Positions 2,168-59,700 of a DNA stretch of 64,000 nucleotides are shown in pieces. Under the pieces are notes generated by a model. It did no database searches. It was not told where the DNA came from and worked only from the letters and a program-made list of their open reading frames with translations. Location of the stretch: the NCBI GenBank assembly GCA_028641055.1, contig CM054063.1, forward strand, positions 44,370,220 to 44,434,219. Direction: 5' to 3'. The position numbers and the translations under genes are program-made. How positions within the stretch are numbered: position 1 is the first letter of the stretch; the number at the start of each line of letters is the position of its first letter. The DNA is from Alopecurus myosuroides (Eukaryota; Streptophyta; Magnoliopsida; Poales; Poaceae).

Positions 2168-2195
2168 TTAACAGGAACAAGATGGTCATCGGTCT

Positions 2196-2985
2196 GTGTG
2201 CCTCATATTTAGGGTGGACACATACAAGCGGCCTTGAGGGACCTGGTGCGCAAAGTGGGATGCACAAGATCCTAACTTTGTGAAAATCACAAGGCGCACC
2301 AGACCACCAAGGCCATCTTAGTGTGAACCAACTCTTGTAATCATCGGAATTTATTTATTTAAAAGATCAAACGAACATCACAAGTAAAACTGCAATAATA
2401 AAAAGCAAGATAATCAAGCGATGTACGATTCATAACCGTAACGATGTGTGCCTCATATTTAGGGTGGACACATACAAGCGGCTGTAGGCGGTGCCGCTGC
2501 GCCAAGTGGGATGCACAAGATCCTAACTTTGTGAAAATCACAAGGCGCAACGGACCGCCTAGGCCATCTGAGTGTGAACCAACTCTTTTAATCATCGGCA
2601 TTTATTTATTTAAAAGATCGAACGAACATCACAAGTAGGACCACAATAATAAAAAGCAATATAATCAAGCATTTACATAATTGAGCATCAGTTACAGAAT
2701 GGACGATTCATAACCGTAACGATGTGTGCCTCATATTTAGGGTGGACACATACAAGCGGCCGCAAGTGGTGCAGCTGCGCCAAGTGGGATGCACAAGATT
2801 CTAACTTTGTGAAAATCACAAGGCGCAGCTGACCACCTGGGCCATCTGAGTGTGAACCAACTCTTTTAATCATCGGCATTTACTTATTCAAAAGATCGAA
2901 CGACCATCACAAGTAAGACCGCAATAATGAAAAGAAAGATAATTAAGCATTGAAATAATTGAGCATCTGTTACACGATGGACGAT
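2196..2985. repeat. Three tandem ~250-280 bp repeats
   Basis: Copies start at GTGTGCCTCATATTTAGGG near 2196, 2446 and 2724 (spacing 250 and 278). Each contains CACAAGGCGCA and ends with a CATCACAAGTA block. The most variable part is a GC-rich stretch after ACATACAAGCGGC that is partly complementary to a later segment of the same unit. Minus-strand frames of 60-80 codons recur in two copies but match nothing I know. Confidence 0.75.
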
Positions 2986-3047
2986 TCATAACCCTAACGA
3001 TTGAGTTCGACTAATTTCGGAAAATGTAGCAAGCCTTACAATAGTTC

Positions 3048-23936: not shown

Positions 23937-26900
23937 CTAGCGTTTTACAATTTTCTTTCCCTTCTTTGCCGCGGTTGAGTAATTCAGTCCCGGAACACCA
24001 TGACTTCTTTGGTGGAATGGGCGACCTGTAGGTAGCGTTGTCCTGCTTCTTCTTGTTGTGTATTTCGTTCCATCGTCATTGTCATCTTCCATTTTCGGGT
24101 CACCGTACTGGTCAAAGTCTTGCTCGTTGGCTACTCCATCCATTCCGATGATGTTTCTTTTGCCTCTCCGCACGACAACACGGCTAGGCCTTGTCGGGTC
24201 AGTAATGAAGAAGCATTGCTCCACTTTGTTAGCCAAGACCCATGGCTCATTTTTTGCGGTGACATTCGTGCCGGATTTGGCTTCAGGTATCACCATGGTG
24301 GTGAAATATTGTCCTTCTTTCCTGACGCTCTTTGCCCATGTGACACGGAACATTGGCACCTTCTCTCCGCAGTAGTCGAGTTCCCATATCTCGTCGATCC
24401 TACCATAGTATCTTTCCTTGACGTCACCTGTTAATGATTCCATCGTTACCCCCCAGTTCTGGTATTCGCAGTTCCGGTCCTTATTTGCCGTGTAGAATGT
24501 GTAACCATTGATATCGTATGCCTGATATGTCATGAGGTTATGTGCGGGGCCTTGTGACAATGTGAGTATGAGTTTTTCTTCTTCAGAATAAGGCGTCTCC
24601 GGGTGATCGGTCATAATCTTCTTCCTGAACCACTATGTGAAATGGATGTTGTGCTCTCTGATTATTTCTGCTTCGGTCCTATTTTGTCCCCGGTCACTGT
24701 AGTACTTCGCGATTAGCAATTTGTGCTTTCCCAACCAAGGATCGACCACTGTTATATGTTGTAGCGCGACTAGGTTTGCTCTGTCAAAGTCGTTGCGTCG
24801 GCCCTGAAAGTCGACATTCATTTCGCGCTGGCCCTCGCGGTGTCCCCATCCACCGAGCCTGCCAAAGTGCCAGTTTACGGGCAGACCAGGGTTCTCATAT
24901 TTGTCTAGAAAATTCGTGCAGAAAGAGATTCACTCCTCTGTCAGAAAGCCCTTGGCAATGCTTGCGTCTGGACGGGCCCTGTTGCGGACGTATCCTTTGA
25001 TGGAACCATTCATCCTTTCGAACGCCATCATGGAGTGTAAAAACGGCGGCCCGAGCTGGATGATATCATCCACGACATGGACAAGGAGATGCACCATAAT
25101 GTCGAAGAATGCTAGCGGGAAGTATATCTCAAGCTCGCATAGTATCACCACGATCTCTTCCTGTAGCCTTGCGAGTTTCTTCACGCCAATCGACTTTCGA
25201 GAGATGACGTCAAAAAAGTTGCAGAGTCCAAACAGCGTTTCGCGGACGTGCTCGTCCATTATCCCTCGAATTGCAACTGGAAGTATCTGCGTCATCATCA
25301 CGTGACAGTCGTGAGACTTCATCCCGCTGAACTTCTGCTTTGGTACGTCTAGGTATCTGCTTATCTTCCCCGCATAACCGTAAGGAAATCTGACTCCAAG
25401 GAGGCATTTGAAGAATTGGTCGATCTCCTTCTCGCATAGCGTGAAGCACGAAGGGGGACAATAATATTCCGTCTTCTTGGCCTTTTTGCCCTTGCGGCGA
25501 CCTTCCGTCCCATCTAACACATCGTCATCATCATCGTCATCATCATCCGGTTTTCCTCCGTGGAGTTCGCCCCTGATATTCAAAAATCTCAAGTCGTTCC
25601 TTGCTTTTCGGCCCATCTTTGGTCCTCTCCGGCATGTTGAGCAGGGTGCCAAGCAGACTCTCGCACACGTTTTTCGTGATATGCATGAGGTCAAGGCAGT
25701 GGGGTGTGCGGAGAATCTTCCAGTACCTCAGGTCCCAGAGAACAGACCTTGTTTTCCATACACCCTCCAACGGCGCCGACGCCTGTCGCTTCTTTCCCGG
25801 CGCAGGGCACTCTTTCCAGTTCTTCAACGGCTCGTCGATTTCCTCGCCGCTCCTTTGACGTGGGGCTCTTCGCATCTCAACTTCATTGTTGAACAGATCT
25901 TTGCGTTTTCTCCACGGGTCATCCTTGCGAAGCCACCTTCGATGCCCCAAGAACACGGTTTTCGAAGACCCGGGGTTTCTCTCTAGCTGGACATACGTAG
26001 TGTCATCCATGCACCTAACGCATGCACAGAATCCGTGCGCCACCTGCCCCGCGACATATCCGTAACCGAGGTAGTCATGCACCGTCGTGATGAGCACGGC
26101 TCTCATTGGGAAAAACGTTTCTCCATAGGCGTCCCACGTATTGGCTGGCTCGTCCCATAACGTGGCTAGCTCCTCTTCCAACAACTGGACATACAGATTG
26201 ATGTCGTTACCTGGTTGTTTCGGCCCTTGAATAAGCATACTCATCTGTATGTACTTCCTCTTCAAGCACAACCAGGGGGGTAGGTTGTATATACATACAA
26301 ACACGGGCCAGGTGCTATGGGTGCTGCTCTGGTTGCCAAAAGGATTTAATCCATCTGTACTCATGCACAACCTGATGTTCCTTGGATCGTCGCCGAATTC
26401 GGGGTATTCGATGTCTAGCGCCTTCCACTGGCTAGCATCTGAGGGGTGTGTCAGCATCGTGTCATCCTTCTCCGGATCGATTCCATCATGCTCTTCTGGC
26501 TTCTTCCTTTCCGCGTGCCATCGCATGAGCTTCGCCTGTGTGGGGTCTGCGAAATACCGCTGCAGACGGGAAGTTATCGGAAAGTACCACACCACTTTTC
26601 GAGGAGAGGCCTTCTTCCCTGTCTTGTATCGAGTTGCGTCGCACACCGGGCATATGGTTCTCTCCGCGTCCGCGCCCCGATAGATGATGCAGTCATTAAT
26701 GCAAGCATGGTATTTCACGTGAGGTAAATCCAGAGGGCACACGACTTTTTTCGCCTCCTCGATGCTCGTTGGACACTTGTTCCCCGTGGGAAGACGGTCG
26801 TGCCAGAATGCCATGTTCTCATCGTAGCTCGCATCGGTCCATCGGTGTTTTGTCTTCATCTCGAGGGTCCTTAACGTTACGTTCAGACGGGTATCCTCGC

Positions 26901-27393
26901 TCACGCATCCTTCATACAATGGAGTGACGGCGTCTATCTCCAGTTGCGACAGCTTCGATTTCTCTCTAGCAGCAGCTCTGGTGTTGCTAGTCTCCTTGAG
27001 AAGCAGAGCTTGGACATGAGGGTCCTGCACCCAGTCCGATGATGATGTCACGACATCTTCATCATGATGTCCTTCGTCTTGATTATGATCATGTCCGACA
27101 TCTTCATCACGATGTCCTTCGTCTTGATTATGATCATGTCCTTCATCTTGATCATGATGTCCTTCATCATGTCCGGGCGACTCTTCATCTTCATCACTTG
27201 TCGGGTAAAGAGTGTAGCCATCCATGAAACCACGACGGATAAGGTGCGACTCCAAATCACCAGAATCGTATCTGATCAAGTGTTTCAGTTTGCATCTTCG
27301 ACAATGACATCTTATCTTCGTCATGCTATTTCGAAACATTTCGTCCGTCGCATGTTTCATAAATCTAGCCACGGTGCCTGTGCTTATATGCAT
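23937..27393 (-). pseudogene. CACTA-1 transposase (TNP2 family), decayed
   Basis: Reading from 27393: an N-terminal transposase-associated domain with a Cys/His cluster (CHCRRCKLKH); an acidic His-rich repeat (DEGH units, 27030-27190); the TNP2 core (PF02992 type, with KNVCESLLGTLLNMPERTKD); a DUF4218-like part (SHDCHVMMTQILPVAIRG); and a DUF4216-like C-terminus (GYTFYTANKD, IWELDY) to the stop at 23937. In En/Spm systems TNP2/TNPD is the endonuclease-like transposase. Three lesions: an extra base in the run at 25605-25608, TGA at 24930-24932 and TAG at 24633-24635. The stretch from 25694 to 23937 otherwise stays in one frame. A 3' splice site (TATGTAG) lies just 5' of the start. Confidence 0.88.
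27030..27190 (-). repeat. Minisatellite encoding a DEGH-type repeat in the transposase
   Basis: About four imperfect copies of a ~30-bp unit (GATGTCCTTCGTCTTGATTA...) that translates on the minus strand as alternating Asp/Glu/Gly/His. Both strands have open frames here only because of the repeat. Confidence 0.7.
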
Positions 27394-27482
27394 GGTTGCC
27401 TACATAGTAAAAAAAGATCAAATGAAAAATTAATTAGAATCAAATTATGTAATATATGGATGATGCATGCATGGTCGTCGAC

Positions 27483-52200: not shown

Positions 52201-52834
52201 ACGGTTTGGAAGGCCCTCTCCCGAATCAAGAATGAGGGGGGGGGGGTATGGTCAGACCCGATGCTAGTCTCTGCCACCAGAGAGAGAAGGGGAAAGGAAA
52301 GGTCAATGGAGGGTGAGATGAACACCCTATCCAACACGCATCTCACAGGGTTCAGCCGTTTATTCGTCCAAGTGTACCTAGCGCCCGATCTTTGAACAGC
52401 CCGAGGACCCCAGTTCGCGATGTGAGAGTTGAAAAGGGCCAACCGTGGCTAGTTGATGTTGTCATTGTTGTTATCGGAGCTCTCTCGGATCAAGTTAAAG
52501 TGCCCCCCCATAATAACCGGGTCGGGGCAACGAGCAATCTTGGCAGAAATCTCGTTGAGGAAGCGAGAGGTGAAGGAGTGGTCCGCAGGTCCGTAGATAT
52601 TGATGAATTAAAACTTTTTCTTGGTAGGTTTATGAAAGACCAGTAAACTGAGGAAGAACTGGCCACTGCCCATGGCACCCACGTCAAACATAGAATCCCG
52701 AGCACCGATGAGCATCCCCCTAGAATGCCCATTGGCTGGGAGCCAGTTCCAAAAGAACTGCTCCCCAAGGCTAAGGCTACACAGCTCCGCGTCAGAGAAA
52801 GATTGCTTAATGGTTTCTTGGAGAAGGATAACAT
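49281..52834 (-). pseudogene. LINE ORF2: endonuclease, reverse transcriptase, zf-RVT (decayed)
   Basis: In order on the minus strand: endonuclease with LLQETI (about 52815) and, later, SGARYTWTNKRLNPVRCVLD with GSDHTP (about 52380-52200); reverse transcriptase with DTAPGPDGFLVPFFKKCWP (51540), RPIALINVIFKSIAKAFASR (51350), LDFEKAYDRVNWEF (51150) and YADD at 50829-50840; then LGLPIADSKLSKEQW; and a C-terminal zf-RVT domain ending with ALAWALWHIRNKHAMEGF near 49500. At least five frame changes or stops separate these blocks, including one just before YADD (near 50865). Catalytic motifs are still recognisable, so decay is moderate. Confidence 0.85.
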
Positions 52835-53060
52835 CACTAGTGGAAAGAGGGCCTTTTGTCCCGGGTCGTAAGGGCCAGTTGTCCCGGTTGTGCAACCGGG
52901 ATGGGCTGGCCGGGACAAATGGCCCGTCCCATTGGTCCCGGTTGTGCCAGGACCCGGGATGGTAAGCACAGGCCACGTGGCGAACCTGGGCCAGGGAGTT
53001 CGTCCCGGTTCGTTCAAGGGACCGGGATGGATACTTTTTTGACAAAAAAAAATATAATCG
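52835..53060. repeat. CACTA-2 left TIR and subterminal repeats
   Basis: TIR, then repeated TTGTCCCGGTTGTGC / GCAACCGGGAT and GGTCCCGGTT blocks in both orientations. Confidence 0.85.
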
Positions 53061-53585
53061 TCCAGGCCCCACGTTTTTTTGGGCTCCTGTCTCCCAATCA
53101 CGAGCCGGCCTCCCCTTCCCCAACCGCGTCCAGGCCCACGTCTTTTATTAAGCCCACTGGTCACATTTTTTTGTCAAAAGGGCCCACTGGCCCGCGTCTT
53201 TTATTATGGTCAGTCAACGGTTCGAAGGGCCCACTGGCCAGCGTGGTCAGTCAATGGTTCGAAGGGGCCACTGGCCAGCGGCCCGTTGGCTGGCTCGCCT
53301 GGTCCCTTAAATTAAGACTACAGGACGGTCAAAGGGCCAGTCGCCTCGTATCCCCGCCCCGCCTCGGCTTCTGCCCGCGCCCCCACTTCCCCACGCGCGC
53401 GTGCCACGGCTGCAACCGCCGCCACGCCTCGGCTCCTGCCCGCATTCATGGCCGCCTGCAACCGCCGCCACGTCCAGGCCGCCGGTTGGCATGCCAGCCC
53501 ACCCCGGGTCCTTTTTAAAGGCCCCCCGCCGCCCGTACAACCCATTCACCCCGGCCGCGCCCAAGGCAGACCAACCGTAGCCACC

Positions 53586-54649
53586 ATGTCCCGCTGGTTC
53601 GGCAGCGGCTCCGGCAGCGGCTCCGGCAAGCGCCCAAGGAATGAAGGCGGCTCCTCGAGCGGCGCCGGCCGCGTCCCACCACCGCCGGCGGAGGCCTTCG
53701 GCTACGGCCCTGGAGGTGTCCGCCTCGGGGGGACGCCGCGCGTCCCCGCGCCACCTCCGGCTGCACGCCCGCCGCCCAGCGCCGCGCCCAAGGGCAAGCG
53801 GTTCCGCCGGTACGTCCGGGTGGACGAGGCCGAGTGGCACTGGAACAACTCCACGCCGGTGTTCTATGCCGACGTCCACCTCCCGGACGGCTGGCACCTG
53901 AACCCCCAACGGATCCCTGTGCCGCCGGCCCCGACCGGCCAGGCACTGCTGGAGGAGGTCGACCGCCGGCGCGAGCTCCTGCCGGCCCCGCGCCGCAGGG
54001 AGCGGATGTACGCGCGCGGCTCCCCCTATTGGGCCGCCTAGCTCGAGCAGGAGCACGAGCTGCGCCGGCGCTCCTTCATCCCCGCCCCCCACGAGGTGGA
54101 CGTCGAGGACTACCCGCCGCCACCGCCCGGCCGCGAGAGGGAGCTGTGGTTCCTCGAGGACATCCCGGAGGACTTCTCCGGGGAGGAGGACCCCGTGCTC
54201 CGGGCCGCCATGGAGGATGCCTGCGAGGCCTCCCGCCTCTCACTCGTCGAGGACGAGATCAAGCGGTGGGAGCGGGTCGTGGCCGCCGCCCGCGCCGACG
54301 CTGCCGCCATGCCGCCGCCGCCGCCCCCCCTACCGAGCCTACCCCCTGGTGGCACGCCCTCTACGCCGAGTACGAGGCGTCCGAGGACCAGCCACCGCCG
54401 CAGCCGCTCCCCCCCGGGCTGGAGTACGGCATGTCCTAGGCCTGGACCGGCGGCGTTTGGGCGCCGGGGTCGCCGGAGCAGGAGGAGGAGCTGCCCCCTC
54501 CGCCGCCGCCGCCGCAGGAGGTGCTGCCCCCGCCACCGCCGTACCCGCCTCCGATGCCCCCGATGCCTGCACCCCCGGCCCAGGCGCCGCCTGCCCACCT
54601 GTGGCAGCCGCCCCCCTACCAGTGCATCTCCGACGACGAGGAGGACTAG
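53586..54649 (+). pseudogene. CACTA-2 plus-strand gene of unknown function (Ser/Gly and Pro-rich)
   Basis: Starts MSRWFGSGSGSGSGKRPRNE after a Kozak-like CCACC. It has a Pro/Ala-rich linker, a conserved-looking block WHWNNSTPVFYADVHLPDGW, an acidic block (EDIPEDFSGEEDPV) with a charged helix (EDEIKRWERVVAAARADAAA), then a Pro-rich end finishing SDDEED. TAG at 54039-54041 and TAG near 54437 interrupt it, and a slip in the C run near 54320-54330 changes frame. Proteins of this style are a recurrent second ORF in grass CACTA elements; the role is unknown. It is convergent with the minus-strand TNP2-derived gene. Confidence 0.6.
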
Positions 54650-54989
54650 TAGATCGGCCGGTCGCCTGTGGCCGCGCCGCCGCCCCCTATTCTATGTAAG
54701 CAAGGCCCCTAGCTACCCCCCAAGAAACGGCCGGCCGCCTGTGGCCGCGCCGCCCGCCCCTTTATGCAAGTACGGCCGGCCGCCTGTGGCCGCGCCGCCC
54801 CCTATCTATGTAAGCAAGGCCCCTGGCCTTTTTTAATATAAGTTGTGTGCCCCCTAGTCCACCGTGTCCCTAGCCCATACCCGCCGGCGGTCCGCCGGCG
54901 GGATCTGACGACTCGTTCCCGCCTCCGGCAGGGCTTCGCCCAGCCATGTCCACTCGTACCTGTCCCTGGGGTGTTCGTTCGGCCTGGAG

Positions 54990-55095
54990 AGAGGGCCGCG
55001 TTTTTTATACACCTGGGCCTCTAGTCCCGGCCCTTGCCACCAACCGGGACTAGAGCCCCTTTGGTCCCGGTTGGTACCACGGCCCGGGACCAAAA
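54990..55095. repeat. Internal subterminal-type repeats of CACTA-2
   Basis: CTAGTCCCGGCCCTTGCC, ACCAACCGGGACTAGAG, TTTGGTCCCGGTTGG and GCCCGGGACCAAA lie in the middle of the element and resemble the end of another CACTA. The DRM-derived part begins about 300 bp further on. Confidence 0.65.
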
Positions 55096-55427
55096 ACAAA
55101 TTTCGAATTTCGGTGGCACCCCTGCGCGCCCAAAATTTTTTAGCGCCAAAATTTGAAAAGGGTTAAGTTTGCACATTAACAACTTCTATATACTTTCAAA
55201 TTTGACAAAAATTCCAACATGAAAAATGCTAGAATTTGCAAAACTAATTTAAATCCATTTTTCGTTTAACTAAATAATTATTCTAACTATTGAAACTATT
55301 AATTATTTTTTCATTTGTATATAATTTGAATATAAAAATGTTACAATTTTTGATTTCTCTCGTGATCTTCCTAATTCAAAGCGAGTTGCACCTTATTGAC
55401 ACGGTGAATTTGGGATCTTCGTCTACA
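55096..55427. other. AT-rich spacer between internal subterminal repeats and the DRM array
   Basis: No gene supported. TTAGCGCCAAAATTTGAAAA-type sequence of the kind found near CACTA ends. Confidence 0.4.
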
Positions 55428-56895
55428 ACAGAAATCACTGTCTTCATGTGGATGACAAGCCTGTGCAAAGCTATCTCTCCTCCTCGAATACCGGAGAATA
55501 AGGACACCACATTAACACCATTGGGAAACATGTTCTTCAACACCGACAAGTGGCAACCCACAGTATCAATTTGGAATGAATTGCATTCCGTGTACGCTAT
55601 CATTACTGAGAGACTTCACCTCGGCAATCTCAATTAAAGTGCCAGTTTGTGTCTGATCCCACCAACCCCTCAAAATCCTCCTATTAACTTCACCTATCTC
55701 AACTCAAATCACTGTCTTCATGTGGATGCAAAGCCTGTGCAGAGCTATATCTCCTCCTCCAATACCGGAGAATAAGGACACCACATTAACACCATTGGGA
55801 AACATGTTCTTCAACACCGACAAGTGGCAACCCACAGTATCAATTTGGAATGAATTGCATTCCGTGTACGCTATCATTACTGAGAGACTTCACGTCGGCA
55901 ATCTCAATTAAAGTGCCAGTTTGTGTCTGATCCCACCAACCCCTCAAAATCCTCCTATTAACTTCACCTATCTCAACTCAAATCACTGTCTTCATGTGGA
56001 TGCCAAGCCTGTGCAGAGCTATCTCTCCTCCTCGAATACCGGAGAATAAGGACACCACATTAACACCATTGGGAAACATATTCTTCAACACCGACAAGTG
56101 GCAACCCACAATATCAATTTGGAATGAATTGCATTCCGTGTACGCTATCAGTACTGAGAGACTTCACGTCGGCAATCTCAATTAAAGTGCCAGTTTGTGT
56201 CTGATCCCACCAACCCCTCAAAATCCTCCTATTAACTTCACCTATCTCAACTCAAATCACTGTCTTCATGTGGATGCCAAGCCTGTGCAAAGCTATCTCT
56301 CCTCCTCGAATACCGGAGAATAAGGACACCACATTAACACCATTGGGAAACATGTTCTTCAACACCGACAAGTGGCAACCCACAGTATCAATTTGGAATG
56401 AATTGCATTCCGTGTACGCTATCATTACTGAGAGACTTCACGTCGGCAATCTCAATTAAAGTGCCAGTTTGTGTCTGATCCCACCAACCCCTCAAAATCC
56501 TCCTATTAACTTCACCTATCTCAACTCAAATCACTGTCTTCATGTGGATGCAAAGCCTGTGCAGAGCTATCTCTCCTCCTCCAATACCGGAGAATAAGGA
56601 CACCACATTAACACCATTGGGAAACATGTTCTTCAACAACGACAAGTGGCAACTCACAGTATCAATTTGGAATGAATTGCATTCCGTGTACGCTATCATT
56701 ACTGAGAGACTTCACGTCGGCAATCTCAATTAAAGTGCCAGTTTGTGTCTGATCCCACCAACCCCTCAAAATCCTCCTATTAACTTCACCTATCTCAACT
56801 CAAATCACTGTCTTCATGTGGACGCCAAGCCTGTGCAAAGCTATCTCTCCTCCTCCAATTTGGAACCCACAGTATCAATTTGGAATGAATGGATG
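55428..56895 (-). pseudogene. Tandem array of a captured DRM methyltransferase segment (5 x 274 bp plus a partial unit)
   Basis: Units start on the plus strand at CACTGTCTTCATGTGG, positions 55436, 55710, 55984, 56258 and 56532, with a shortened sixth at 56806. On the minus strand each reads NSFQIDTVGCHLSVLKNMFP, then NVVSLFSGIGGGE and IALHR, then HMKTVI, TGA, VEIGEVNRRILRGWWDQTQT and GTLIEIADVKSLSND. This is the AdoMet-binding motif I region and the following segment of DRM-type (domains rearranged) cytosine methyltransferases, which carry out RNA-directed de novo methylation. Units 2 and 5 keep FSGIGGG; units 1, 3 and 4 have FSGIRGG. 274 is not a multiple of 3, so the frame shifts at every unit. 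The catalytic Pro-Cys motif is absent. Confidence 0.9.
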
Positions 56896-57059
56896 TAGCC
56901 TCTTTCTTGAGCAGCTGCACAGAAGTGCTTAGAATCCACAAACTCCGGCTCTATGTCATACAAATTTCTGGAAATTTCCACCCATACACTTTTTGGAGCT
57001 AGGGCCTCATTTTCATTTGGAATAATAATGAAGTCAGACTGGTCATAGTTGTCAAGCAC
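56896..57059 (-). pseudogene. Captured DRM methyltransferase, earlier segment of the catalytic domain
   Basis: The minus strand reads NENEALAPKSVWVEISRNLY, DIEPEFVDSKHFCAAAQERG and YIH. It is then joined directly to SFQIDTVG of the truncated sixth array unit, followed by a stop. In DRM proteins the ALAPKGVW...GYIH region lies well before the NSFQ-DTV motif, so over a hundred residues are missing at this junction. Together with the array it shows capture of at least two parts of one host gene, in native order, followed by deletion and amplification. It cannot encode an active enzyme. Confidence 0.9.
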
Positions 57060-57276
57060 TCAATGCTTGCCAGCTTTTGACCGATCAATACAAATTATTG
57101 GTCAAACTTGCACCTACTCCATTCATAATCACATAATATGTATAAATATTATTTTGGTTAACAAAATCTCGTTCATACTACGTTATAAGAACTATGATCA
57201 TGTATTCCACGTTTATTATTACACATCAGCAACAACATCCCTATCTAGTCTTCTGAATTTTCTTCGTGTCCCTTGC
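57060..57276. other. Spacer between the DRM pieces and the TNP2-derived gene
   Basis: AT-rich, no open frame of note. It may be DRM intron or TNP2 3' UTR sequence. Confidence 0.4.
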
Positions 57277-58956
57277 TTATGATCGCTTCGGCCGTAACCA
57301 TGGAGCATCTTCATTATTTAACGGGATGGTGGGGTCAGCTTTCACTGTGAAGGGTGGAATTTCAACAAACTTATTATAATCTTCTGACATGTCTGTCGTA
57401 TCCTCGATTCCCACGATGTTTCTTTTCCCTGAGAGAACTATGTGACGCTTCGGCTCATCGTATGATGAAATTGTTCCCTTATTTTTTCTTTTCTTCGGTC
57501 TGGAAGACATGTCCTTCACATAGAAGACCTGAGCCACATCATTGGCTAGAACGAATGGCTCGTCATTGTAACCAATACAGTTGAGATCCACTGTTGTCAT
57601 TCCATAAAGCGGGTCTACCTTTACCCCTTCTCCATTCAGGTTGACCCATTTGCACTTGAACAAAGGGACCTTAAAAGAAGGTCCATAGTCAAGTTCCCAT
57701 ATCTCCTCTATGTAACCATAGTATGTGTCAGTTTTTCCATTCTCGTTTGTTGTATCAAAGCGGACACCACTGTTTTGGTTGGTGCTCTTCTTATCTTGGG
57801 AGCTCGTGTAAAATGTATTTCCATTTATCTCGTACCCTTGAAAACTCCCAATAGTCGAAGATGGTGACCCTGCCAACATGTATAGCTGATCTTCAACAGT
57901 GGTGTCATTTATAAGACGTGTTTGCAACCAACTTCCGAAAGTCTCCATGTGTTCGCGTTTAATCCATGAGTCATCCTTCCCCGGGTTTGCAGACCGTACA
58001 ATATTCTTGTGTTCCTCGACATACGTAGCCATGAACATAGAATTTTGTAGAACTGTGTAGTGTGCTTTGGTCAAAGAATGCCCGTCCCTAGGTATCATTG
58101 TTTTCTTTCCCAGCGTTCCTTTTCCCCTCAGTCTCCCCTCATGCCGCGATTCAGGAACACCAATTGTCTTAAGGTCAGGAATAAAGTCAACACAGAACCC
58201 AATGACCTCCTCTGTTCCATAGCCCTTCGAGATGCTTCCTTCTGGCCTAGCACGGTTATGAACATATTTCTTCAAGACTCCCATGAACCTCTCAAAGGGG
58301 AACATATTGTGTAGAAAGACCGGACCGAGAATATGAATCTCTTCACATAGGTGAACAAGGGGATGAGTCATAATGTTGAAGAAGGATGGTGGGAACACCA
58401 ACTCAAAACTAACAAGACACTGGACCACATCCCTCTGTAATCTTGTCAGAATTTCTGGATCGATTACCTTCTGAGATATTGCGTTCATGAATGCACATAG
58501 CTTCACAATGGGTACTCGAACATTTTCCGGTAGAAGCCCCCTCAATGCAATCGGAAGCAATTGCGTCATAATCACGTGGCAGTTCATTGCAGTATCGTCG
58601 GGCTCTTCTGATGCCTGTTCTTGATCACCTCCTTCTTCTGCATTCTCTTCCATTGCAGTATCGTCGTATTCAGGGAACAAAGGATCTTCTTCTTCTTCTT
58701 CATCGTCTTCCATCACAACCCCTCTTTCTCCATGCTTGGTCCAGCAATTATAGCTGGGCATGAAACCTCTCCGAAGTAGATGGCCGTGAAGGATTCTTTC
58801 GGAAGAATGTTCTCTGACGTTCCGACAATCAACACATGGGCAACACATGAAGCCATTATCTTTGTTCGCCTGAGCTACAGCAAGAAATGCATTCAGGCCT
58901 GCCATATACTCGGAGGTGCGTCGGTCACCGTACATCCATCGCTGCCGTGCATCCAT
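57277..58956 (-). CDS. Internally deleted TNP2-derived protein of CACTA-2 (no transposase core), open frame intact
   Basis: 559 codons from the ATG at 58956 (MDARQRWMYGDRRTSEYMAG), just behind a CAG splice acceptor; an upstream in-frame ATG would add 22 residues. It contains the N-terminal transposase-associated domain (CCPCVDCRN, HLLRRGF), an acidic linker, then jumps to a DUF4218-like domain (NCHVIMTQLLPIALRG, MFPFERFMGVLKKYVHNRAR) and a DUF4216-like C-terminus (GYEINGNTFYTSSQDKK, YGYIEEIWELDYG). The whole TNP2 core between them is missing. The copy of ATTGCAGTATCGTCG at the junction (about 58587) also occurs at about 58652, pointing to deletion between short direct repeats. No stop or frameshift remains. 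It probably keeps DNA-binding or assembly parts without cleavage activity. Confidence 0.85.
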   Translation of the reverse strand: MDARQRWMYGDRRTSEYMAGLNAFLAVAQANKDNGFMCCPCVDCRNVREHSSERILHGHLLRRGFMPSYNCWTKHGERGVVMEDDEEEEEDPLFPEYDDTAMEENAEEGGDQEQASEEPDDTAMNCHVIMTQLLPIALRGLLPENVRVPIVKLCAFMNAISQKVIDPEILTRLQRDVVQCLVSFELVFPPSFFNIMTHPLVHLCEEIHILGPVFLHNMFPFERFMGVLKKYVHNRARPEGSISKGYGTEEVIGFCVDFIPDLKTIGVPESRHEGRLRGKGTLGKKTMIPRDGHSLTKAHYTVLQNSMFMATYVEEHKNIVRSANPGKDDSWIKREHMETFGSWLQTRLINDTTVEDQLYMLAGSPSSTIGSFQGYEINGNTFYTSSQDKKSTNQNSGVRFDTTNENGKTDTYYGYIEEIWELDYGPSFKVPLFKCKWVNLNGEGVKVDPLYGMTTVDLNCIGYNDEPFVLANDVAQVFYVKDMSSRPKKRKNKGTISSYDEPKRHIVLSGKRNIVGIEDTTDMSEDYNKFVEIPPFTVKADPTIPLNNEDAPWLRPKRS

Positions 58957-59149
58957 CTGCATCATATAATTAAGTTTATCAAAATACATATTAATACAGA
59001 GATGACCACAGTACATCGACAAATAATACTTTTTATGTATCAGTTACAGATGAAAAAGATAATTTGTTAACCTCGGTCGAAGATACCATTTTCAATGAGC
59101 TTGTGTGCGTCTCGGGAATTTCGTCGAACACCTCGTGTGCATAGTAAAT

Positions 59150-59502
59150 AAAAACACACTAACACCACACTCTCTCACACCTCCAAGCAAAAAAAAAGAT
59201 GGAAGGAGGGGGGGCTGGGGCAGTATATATAGGGGAAGGGGGCATTGGTCCCGGTTCGTGGACTGAACCGGGACAACAGGTCATGCGCGTGCCACGTGGC
59301 CTGTGGCTAGGCATTGGTCCCGGTCCGTGGCACGAGCCGGGACCGATATGCCCCCCACGAACCGGGACCAATGCGCCCAGGCGATTCCTGTTGCCCCGGG
59401 CGCACGAACCGGGACCAATGCAGGGCATTTGTCCCGGATTTGGTTGCAACCGGGACAGCTGCCCCCCGGCCCCCTGGACGAGAGGGGTTGTTTCCACTAG
59501 TG
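59150..59502. repeat. CACTA-2 right subterminal repeats and TIR
   Basis: Repeated CATTGGTCCCGGTTCGTGG / CGAACCGGGACCAATGC and TTTGTCCCGG blocks, then TTTCCACTAGTG. Confidence 0.85.
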
Positions 59503-59700
59503 CATCTATCCCGTGTGTCCGGATTAGGTCTTTGGTCATGGTTCAGCGACCCGGGACACCGAAACCACGAATGTTGAGAATTAGCCAACACATTAGGAAA
59601 CGACTCTCAGGACCCGTGCTCGGTGGGTGGGAGGGGGATTGGGCGATGTCCTAGAGGACTTGGCCTGGCGGGTGTAAGGAGTGCGGGGGGTTAAGGGGAA
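59503..59700 (-). pseudogene. Start of the LINE endonuclease domain, right of CACTA-2
   Basis: The minus strand reads NIRGFGVPGR, a TGA, then TMTKDLIRTHGID, which joins VILLQET at 52834 once CACTA-2 is removed. It is the first strand region of an L1-type AP endonuclease. It is cut 5' by the Copia C LTR at 59701. Confidence 0.8.

Follow-up and report, generated by a model that had tools for sequence, protein, structure and literature searches.

A CACTA transposon family of Alopecurus myosuroides carries and amplifies part of a host DRM gene that lacks catalytic motif IV

Why would a transposon carry, in many copies, pieces of the gene for an enzyme that is used to silence it? The question is raised by a 64-kb stretch of DNA from Alopecurus myosuroides (here "the window," on contig C7 of a genome of 3.57 Gb in 3227 contigs). 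A preliminary description, made from the letters alone, had recognized on the minus strand of a CACTA element the signatures of DRM, the methyltransferase of RNA-directed DNA methylation (RdDM). It placed them in their native order, with the second part repeated five times at a strict 274-bp period, and it proposed that RNA from this array might act against the host DRM mRNA. The features on which the discussion turns are these, in window coordinates, where P0001 is a DRM protein from Alopecurus aequalis.

52835..59502, no strand assigned: complete CACTA element, 6668 bp, internally deleted, a member of a high-copy family, recognized by its terminal inverted repeats, its 3-bp flanks and its sister copies
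52832..52834, plus strand: target-site duplication CAT, left copy (right copy at 59503-59505)
52835..52846, plus strand: terminal inverted repeat, left
53587..54649, plus strand: the element's second gene, GC-rich and in convergent orientation to the DRM sequences
55582 to ~55427, minus strand: terminal partial array unit (P0001 residues 434-485)
55583..56678, minus strand: four full 274-bp units starting at 56678, 56404, 56130 and 55856, each with P0001 residues 434-521 and a short non-DRM linker
56679..56891, minus strand: shortened array unit of 213 bp
56871..57014, minus strand: DRM piece 1 (P0001 residues 270-316, 89% amino acid identity)
57277..59043, minus strand: transposase remnant that keeps Transpos_assoc, DUF4218 and DUF4216, the catalytic Transposase_21 being gone
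59491..59502, minus strand: terminal inverted repeat, right

The similarity to DRM is robust. The 72-amino acid minus-strand frame at 57059-56841 matched DRM crystal structures by phmmer (4onj, E 7.6e-18; 7l4h, E 1.7e-15), and the best of 15 matches in a protein search with the same stretch was P0001 (E 1.1e-20, 89% identity). When P0001 was compared with the window by tblastn, the element scored 172 bits, against 22.3 for the rest of the window and a maximum of 23.9 in 50 shuffles. This rules out chance similarity; no further DRM similarity was found by tblastn in the 64 kb outside of the element. Piece 1 and one unit, taken together, are identical to P0001 at 121 of 133 aligned positions. 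A search with a single unit gave 13 protein matches, and the eight that were inspected are all pieces of DRM genes, none with an array. A search with P0001 in viral contigs and genome contigs confirmed no relatives there. Thus, the minus-strand signatures were read correctly, and their best protein matches are, as had been predicted, DRM methyltransferases.

The arrangement needs some correction. The order of the parts is indeed native, but P0001 residues ~317-433 are missing between piece 1 and the array, which itself stops short of motif IV, the motif that holds the catalytic Pro-Cys. The 274-bp period is also real, but the five repeats are actually a shortened unit, four full units, and a partial one. 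The full units differ from one another by 4-6 bases in 274 (four units, six comparisons), and all four contain an in-frame TGA at codon 51. Since 274 is not divisible by three, this stop and the shift of frame together mean that no DRM protein can be read through the array. A protein encoded by arrays of this type was likewise rejected: of the 111 full units from the loci fetched and the window, 106 have TGA at codon 51 (the other five have TCA), and the frame is lost at each unit. The window also holds another tandem array, at 2195-3001, with a 278-bp unit in ~2.9 copies.

The element that surrounds the array is what it was said to be. Both ends of 52835-59502 are CACTAGTGGAAA, the CACTA-type terminal inverted repeat, and a 3-bp target-site duplication (CAT/CAT) flanks its 6668 bp. 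No Transposase_21 (TNP2-type transposase) was found in the window copy; it is present in the sister elements L015 and L029, and the remnant in the window is ~1.6 kb shorter than its counterpart in L029. Within its family, the window copy has thus been altered by deletion, and it has neither a DDE transposase domain nor a readable DRM protein. It holds host coding DNA within CACTA termini together with an incomplete transposase, and in this respect is a Pack-CACTA. Recombination between two 16-bp direct repeats (58585 and 58651) was considered as the origin of the transposase deletion and rejected: both repeats are still there, which makes filler copied at the break a better fit.

Read along the minus strand from the right end, the transposase remnant is followed by piece 1 and then by the array, and the sense orientation of DRM is that of the transposase. 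The GC-rich gene lies to the left on the plus strand and points at the array, which thus sits between convergent genes. No Pfam family matched this second gene, and a TAG at 54039-54041 breaks it where the sisters L029 and L030 have tryptophan. Elsewhere in the window, at 23937-27399 on the minus strand, is another transposase region of the CACTA type, in which Transposase_21 and Transpos_assoc were recognized and DRM similarity was not.

How far has the array spread? In the window's own genome, an array query gave at least 132 matches from 40 of 1443 candidates scored. Twenty loci were chosen from the top-scoring matches, and all of them hold the array, with 5-10 unit starts each at the 274-bp period (in two of the 20, one spacing is 272 or 273). 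The 111 full units lie on average 2.3 bases from their majority sequence. An exact 30-base core of the array occurs 691 times genome-wide (control 0). The same array is thus present in other copies, a point that the preliminary description had proposed to check. In some arrays (for example, C1:16971952-16974995 and C1:17003447-17007311) the exact core recurs every 548 bases, a sign of two-unit higher-order repeats in long arrays.

The family itself is larger. A 30-mer from the transposase end has 2303 exact copies (control 0). At the first 100 of these places listed on C1 (to 62.7 Mb), ORF or array patterns were found at 14 loci, a figure that counts exact patterns read by eye and would miss diverged pieces. 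From these counts, DRM-carrying elements are probably a minority of the CACTA family. Here as elsewhere, the match counts from genome searches are lower bounds, and the matches scored are the most similar ones, which biases upward any share of open frames.

Which host gene did the piece come from? The best set of matches to the N-terminal UBA part of P0001 lies at C4:291763000-291769000, where separate N-terminal matches accompany one large open exon that covers residues 192-563 and lacks motif IV. Genome-wide, 46 matches were found for the UBA part, all 66 candidates having been scored. Residues 317-433, which the window array lacks, gave at least 150, with 150 of the 556 candidates scored; these include the donor gene, are 93-96% identical and have a stop in 23 cases. 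This disparity argues that the direction of capture was from host gene to element.

Of 264 bases compared, 254 are shared by the majority array unit and the donor exon. They include uninterrupted matches of 66, 66 and 63 bases, and 146 of the unit's 244 21-mers are matched exactly; the window array contains 255 of the exon's 883 21-mers. The unit thus passes the test of nucleotide identity with a host DRM gene. On these comparisons of sequence, DRM capture and amplification by CACTA is established, as the preliminary description had it. Its view of the donor as an active de novo methyltransferase gene fared less well, because the best donor is a paralogue, a host DRM gene in which the catalytic motif IV was already missing. 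Between the majority unit and the donor, the codon differences are 8 nonsynonymous to 1 synonymous, as would be expected if no coding constraint acts on the array unit.

The lost motif is not peculiar to this gene. Trees were built from 48 rows, comprising 3 window rows and 45 proteins selected from search matches (the search with P0001 listed 120 of 784). In the careful tree, the window rows join P0001 with support of 100/95. In the quick tree, they fall in a group with eight proteins, one from a metagenome (P0118) and seven from the named genera Alopecurus, Puccinellia, Lolium, Avena and Festuca. These genera belong to the tribe Poeae. The DRM proteins nearest to the window are those of Alopecurus and Puccinellia, on which ground a host from the Triticeae was rejected, and the members from other genera are 78-84% identical to P0001.

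All eight proteins of the clade share an identical 16-residue deletion of motif IV, and all eight keep motif I (F.GIGG, in one case GVGG). The clade nests among grass DRM2 proteins in these 48-row trees, which contain no known DRM3 row. A pseudoenzyme DRM lineage, nested within grass DRM2, is therefore the likely description. The DRMs seen with this deletion are P0001-P0003, P0016-P0019 and P0118, together with L048 and L049 in the window's own genome. A separate protein, P0036 from Triticum dicoccoides, also has no Pro-Cys; it has a different deletion and another place on the tree, which implies that motif IV was lost at least twice on this tree.

These facts bear directly on the idea that RNA from the array serves the transposon. 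On this view, array-derived RNA, antisense or small, would reduce the level of host DRM mRNA and shield the transposon from silencing, making the array a functional analogue of rice miR820. This precedent was not named in the preliminary description. In rice, according to Nosaka et al. (2012; PMC3459959), CACTA elements carry pre-miR820, akin to exon 2 and intron 3 of OsDRM2, and miR820 lowers OsDRM2; the same paper states that miR820 was not found in maize or Arabidopsis. The array, moreover, matches its donor exon closely enough to pair (the 254 of 264 bases and 255 of 883 21-mers given above), lies between convergent genes, and is represented by 691 exact cores.

However, the best target of such RNAs would be a gene without the catalytic motif. 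Five other DRM exons were read. The three with motif IV intact (L050, L051 and L052) are only 82-87% identical to the unit, and the exact 21-mers that they have in common with the window array number 11, 18 and 16. Small RNAs from the array might thus find a good match in the donor gene and only a poor one in these three intact DRM genes. A further exon without motif IV, in L049, is 91% identical to the unit with 47 shared 21-mers; another without Pro-Cys (L053, at C1:621687300) shares none. Read-through from the transposase would, in addition, yield sense RNA, as DRM sense lies on the transposase strand, and any small RNAs made from the array should act against the element that carries it as well.

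Nor is there a fold-back. Neither strand of the array unit folds better than shuffled sequence (z 1.28 and 1.06), and because of this the array does not look like a precursor of the miR820 type. Among the longest 25 of the 53 inverted repeats listed, none touches the array apart from short partial ones. A miRNA precursor like that of miR820 was rejected on the lack of a hairpin and of any Rfam match at gathering score within the window. The miR820 sequence was also tried and has no match in the window with up to five substitutions allowed. The proposal that the array lowers host DRM mRNA to the transposon's benefit is, on balance, very unlikely.

A different possibility comes from those sister elements that contain what the window lacks. 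ORF loci were picked from the rows of the residue 317-433 search. Three of these (L029, L030 and L031) were read over 9.9 kb each; 16 more were shorter, one of which (L032) is the host gene. L029 and L030 belong to the same family, being 98.8% identical to L015 over the transposase side. In both, the array is replaced by an intronless ORF for P0001 residues 264-563, which corresponds to the donor exon from its middle to just 5' of the stop. It encodes the methyltransferase domain with motif IV, and so the catalytic Pro-Cys, deleted.

The element in L029 is complete, measures 8377 bp between TAT/TAT flanks, and has its transposase split into two frames; the far end of L030 was not found within the 251 bases fetched there. 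The element in L031 (1927-7253, 5327 bp, TTG/TTG) is a deletion derivative in which an open frame of 461 amino acids joins part of the transposase to the DRM domain. Target-site duplications were also read in L013 (ATA) and L019 (ATG), the far ends of the other fetched copies lying beyond the stretch read. L015, which is of the array type, has an open transposase frame of 1127 amino acids with all four Pfam domains.

In six of 18 sister copies, the ORF begins at a new ATG (MNKPPYFYYEN) and stays open across the motif IV site. The frame in L038 is open across that site too and extends further at its 5' end; in L033 and L039 the 5' part is a different one, and the open tail frames measure 296 and 336 amino acids. 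The remaining nine are fused, cut near residue 521, frameshifted or deleted. The RMNKPP junction is common to 12 of the 15 shorter copies (flanks within 1351 bases). L033, L038 and L039, whose membership in the CACTA family is putative and rests on flanks of at most 1351 bases, also include residues 246-263, so that the captured segment may at first have extended further upstream.

The ORF is widespread as well. An ORF-only 32-mer has 147 exact copies, all but the one in the host gene (146) lying outside it. A query for the tail across the motif IV deletion gave at least 149 matches from 150 of 169 candidates scored, host DRM genes included. Outside host genes, 37 tail matches (counted from the table, at 42 of 42 query positions or more) lie in stop-free frames of at least 310 amino acids. 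All seven sister ORFs that are complete to the motif IV site lack Pro-Cys. The L029 ORF matches PF00145 only, without the N-terminal UBA domains, and keeps the SAM-binding motif I.

Could such a protein work as a decoy? A DRM domain without UBA or motif IV might pair or compete with host DRM2, or with its pseudoenzyme relative, and thereby weaken RdDM; the window array would then be a dead relic. The six open copies and the 37 long frames would suit this, as would the retention of motif I both in the eight clade proteins and in the L029 ORF. A predicted model of P0001, of moderate confidence (mean pLDDT 63.5), finds its best matches among the NtDRM crystal structures. Further, a catalytically mutated DRM with a role in RdDM is on record: DRM3 (PMC2965745) indicates that loss of Pro-Cys need not prevent a DRM from mattering to this pathway. 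On the other side, the donor had already lost motif IV, so the loss was not selected in the transposon, and DRM-bearing elements are probably a minority of their family.

The structural evidence for pairing is equivocal. The structure 4onq, reportedly a dimer-interface mutant, has five altered positions. P0001 keeps two of the five (R and Y), which would speak against pairing, but active grass DRMs vary at these positions too, and for both reasons dimerization is neither claimed nor excluded here.

What does selection say? Among the 18 copies, pN/pS for the ORF is 0.51, near the 0.54 of the transposase in 19 of 22 copies (the short loci L013, L019 and L026 being left out). This, with an ORF that is open in part of the copies, speaks against the view that the ORF is a mere passenger, without proving the point. 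Among the seven most complete ORFs, however, pN/pS is 0.99. Codon changes found in single ORF copies stand at 34 nonsynonymous to 10 synonymous, a neutral ratio; those shared between copies stand at 6 to 5, with no significant departure from the single-copy changes (p 0.15). In the transposase, by comparison, shared changes are 6 to 14 against 140 to 45 (p 7e-5), a clear constraint.

Fixed differences between the ORF and the host exon number 5 nonsynonymous and 7 synonymous; of the five, one falls on the transposon side, three on the host side, and one is ambiguous. The constraint in the fixed differences may date from before capture, and the low pN/pS relative to the host gene may likewise stem from its time as a host gene. 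A protein decoy with the array as its relic is judged unlikely. Quite unlikely, too, is a compound of the two ideas, where the family would have made its own gene from a pseudo-DRM (with motif I and a new start, without motif IV or UBA) that poisons RdDM as a decoy partner, and where the window array would be a non-coding descendant, with the possible addition of RNA directed at the same gene.

One further proposal concerns tolerance rather than attack. Carrying a piece of a needed host gene could make silencing of the transposon costly, so that the host leaves it alone. Such camouflage has been proposed for captured essential genes (PMC13317346), and the near-identity of array to donor exon would suit it. 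But the donor here is a paralogue of unsettled importance, and the proposal is highly improbable.

Capture alone, of course, is no evidence of function, since the capture of genes by transposons, CACTA elements included, is well known; PMC13317346 says as much, and describes captured fragments in maize as reservoirs of siRNAs against donor genes. The reading that we favor, and hold to be reasonably probable, is that a CACTA element copied the last exon of a host DRM without motif IV, that the array is a by-product, and that its siRNAs would mainly methylate the element itself.

The steps would be as follows. The last large (methyltransferase) exon of a host DRM was captured when it was already without motif IV, as the donor exon documents. 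It is then met in two forms, both read directly in the loci: in sister elements, as an ORF free of introns that starts from a new ATG, and, in the window copy and others, as a shortened exon piece with head-to-tail 274-bp units. The array would descend from the ORF form, an order suggested by structure, but both could derive from an older form. The array itself would be a by-product of capture and repair, spread by multiplication of the family. Its RNAs, if transcribed, would give rise to small RNAs that methylate the element and touch the donor through 96% identity, DRM genes with intact motif IV being poor targets.

How does this case compare with known systems? The rice elements with miR820 are likewise CACTA elements in a grass, with a DRM-family piece that is multiplied along with them. 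They differ in having a fold-back precursor, from exon 2 and intron 3, and a tested miRNA, whereas the window family has an array or an ORF, without a hairpin, derived from the large exon for the catalytic domain (for the ORF, residues 264-563). Further, miR820 targets OsDRM2 itself, while the donor here lacks motif IV. With another part of the gene, another form and another donor, the window case looks like an independent capture. That DRM was captured by a rice CACTA too makes a reading by chance a little less comfortable.

Pack-CACTA and other Pack-TYPE elements share with the window copy the host coding DNA within CACTA termini and the lack of a complete transposase; here, the family also includes L015, with its open transposase, and has other copies in which the captured exon is an ORF. 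The VANC genes of VANDAL elements resemble the sister ORF in being transposon-borne and potentially opposed to DNA methylation, and differ in that VANC is described as sequence-specific. VANC proteins are not known to be related to methyltransferases. DRM3 shares with the clade a DRM-type domain without the Pro-Cys of motif IV; the present clade differs in nesting, in the 48-row trees, among grass DRM2 proteins and in its 16-residue deletion, and the transposon ORF also lacks UBA. A literature search found no report of a DRM methyltransferase domain or array borne by a CACTA element.

Thus, the DRM piece in the window copy consists of decayed non-coding repeats, and some of its sisters keep a readable ORF that is apparently catalytically dead. 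The resistance of plant transposons to silencing is poorly known. With a second CACTA family, in another grass and with another part of DRM, the choice between a repeated strategy and chance becomes directly testable. The case also exposes, in five grass genera, host DRM proteins without the catalytic motif.
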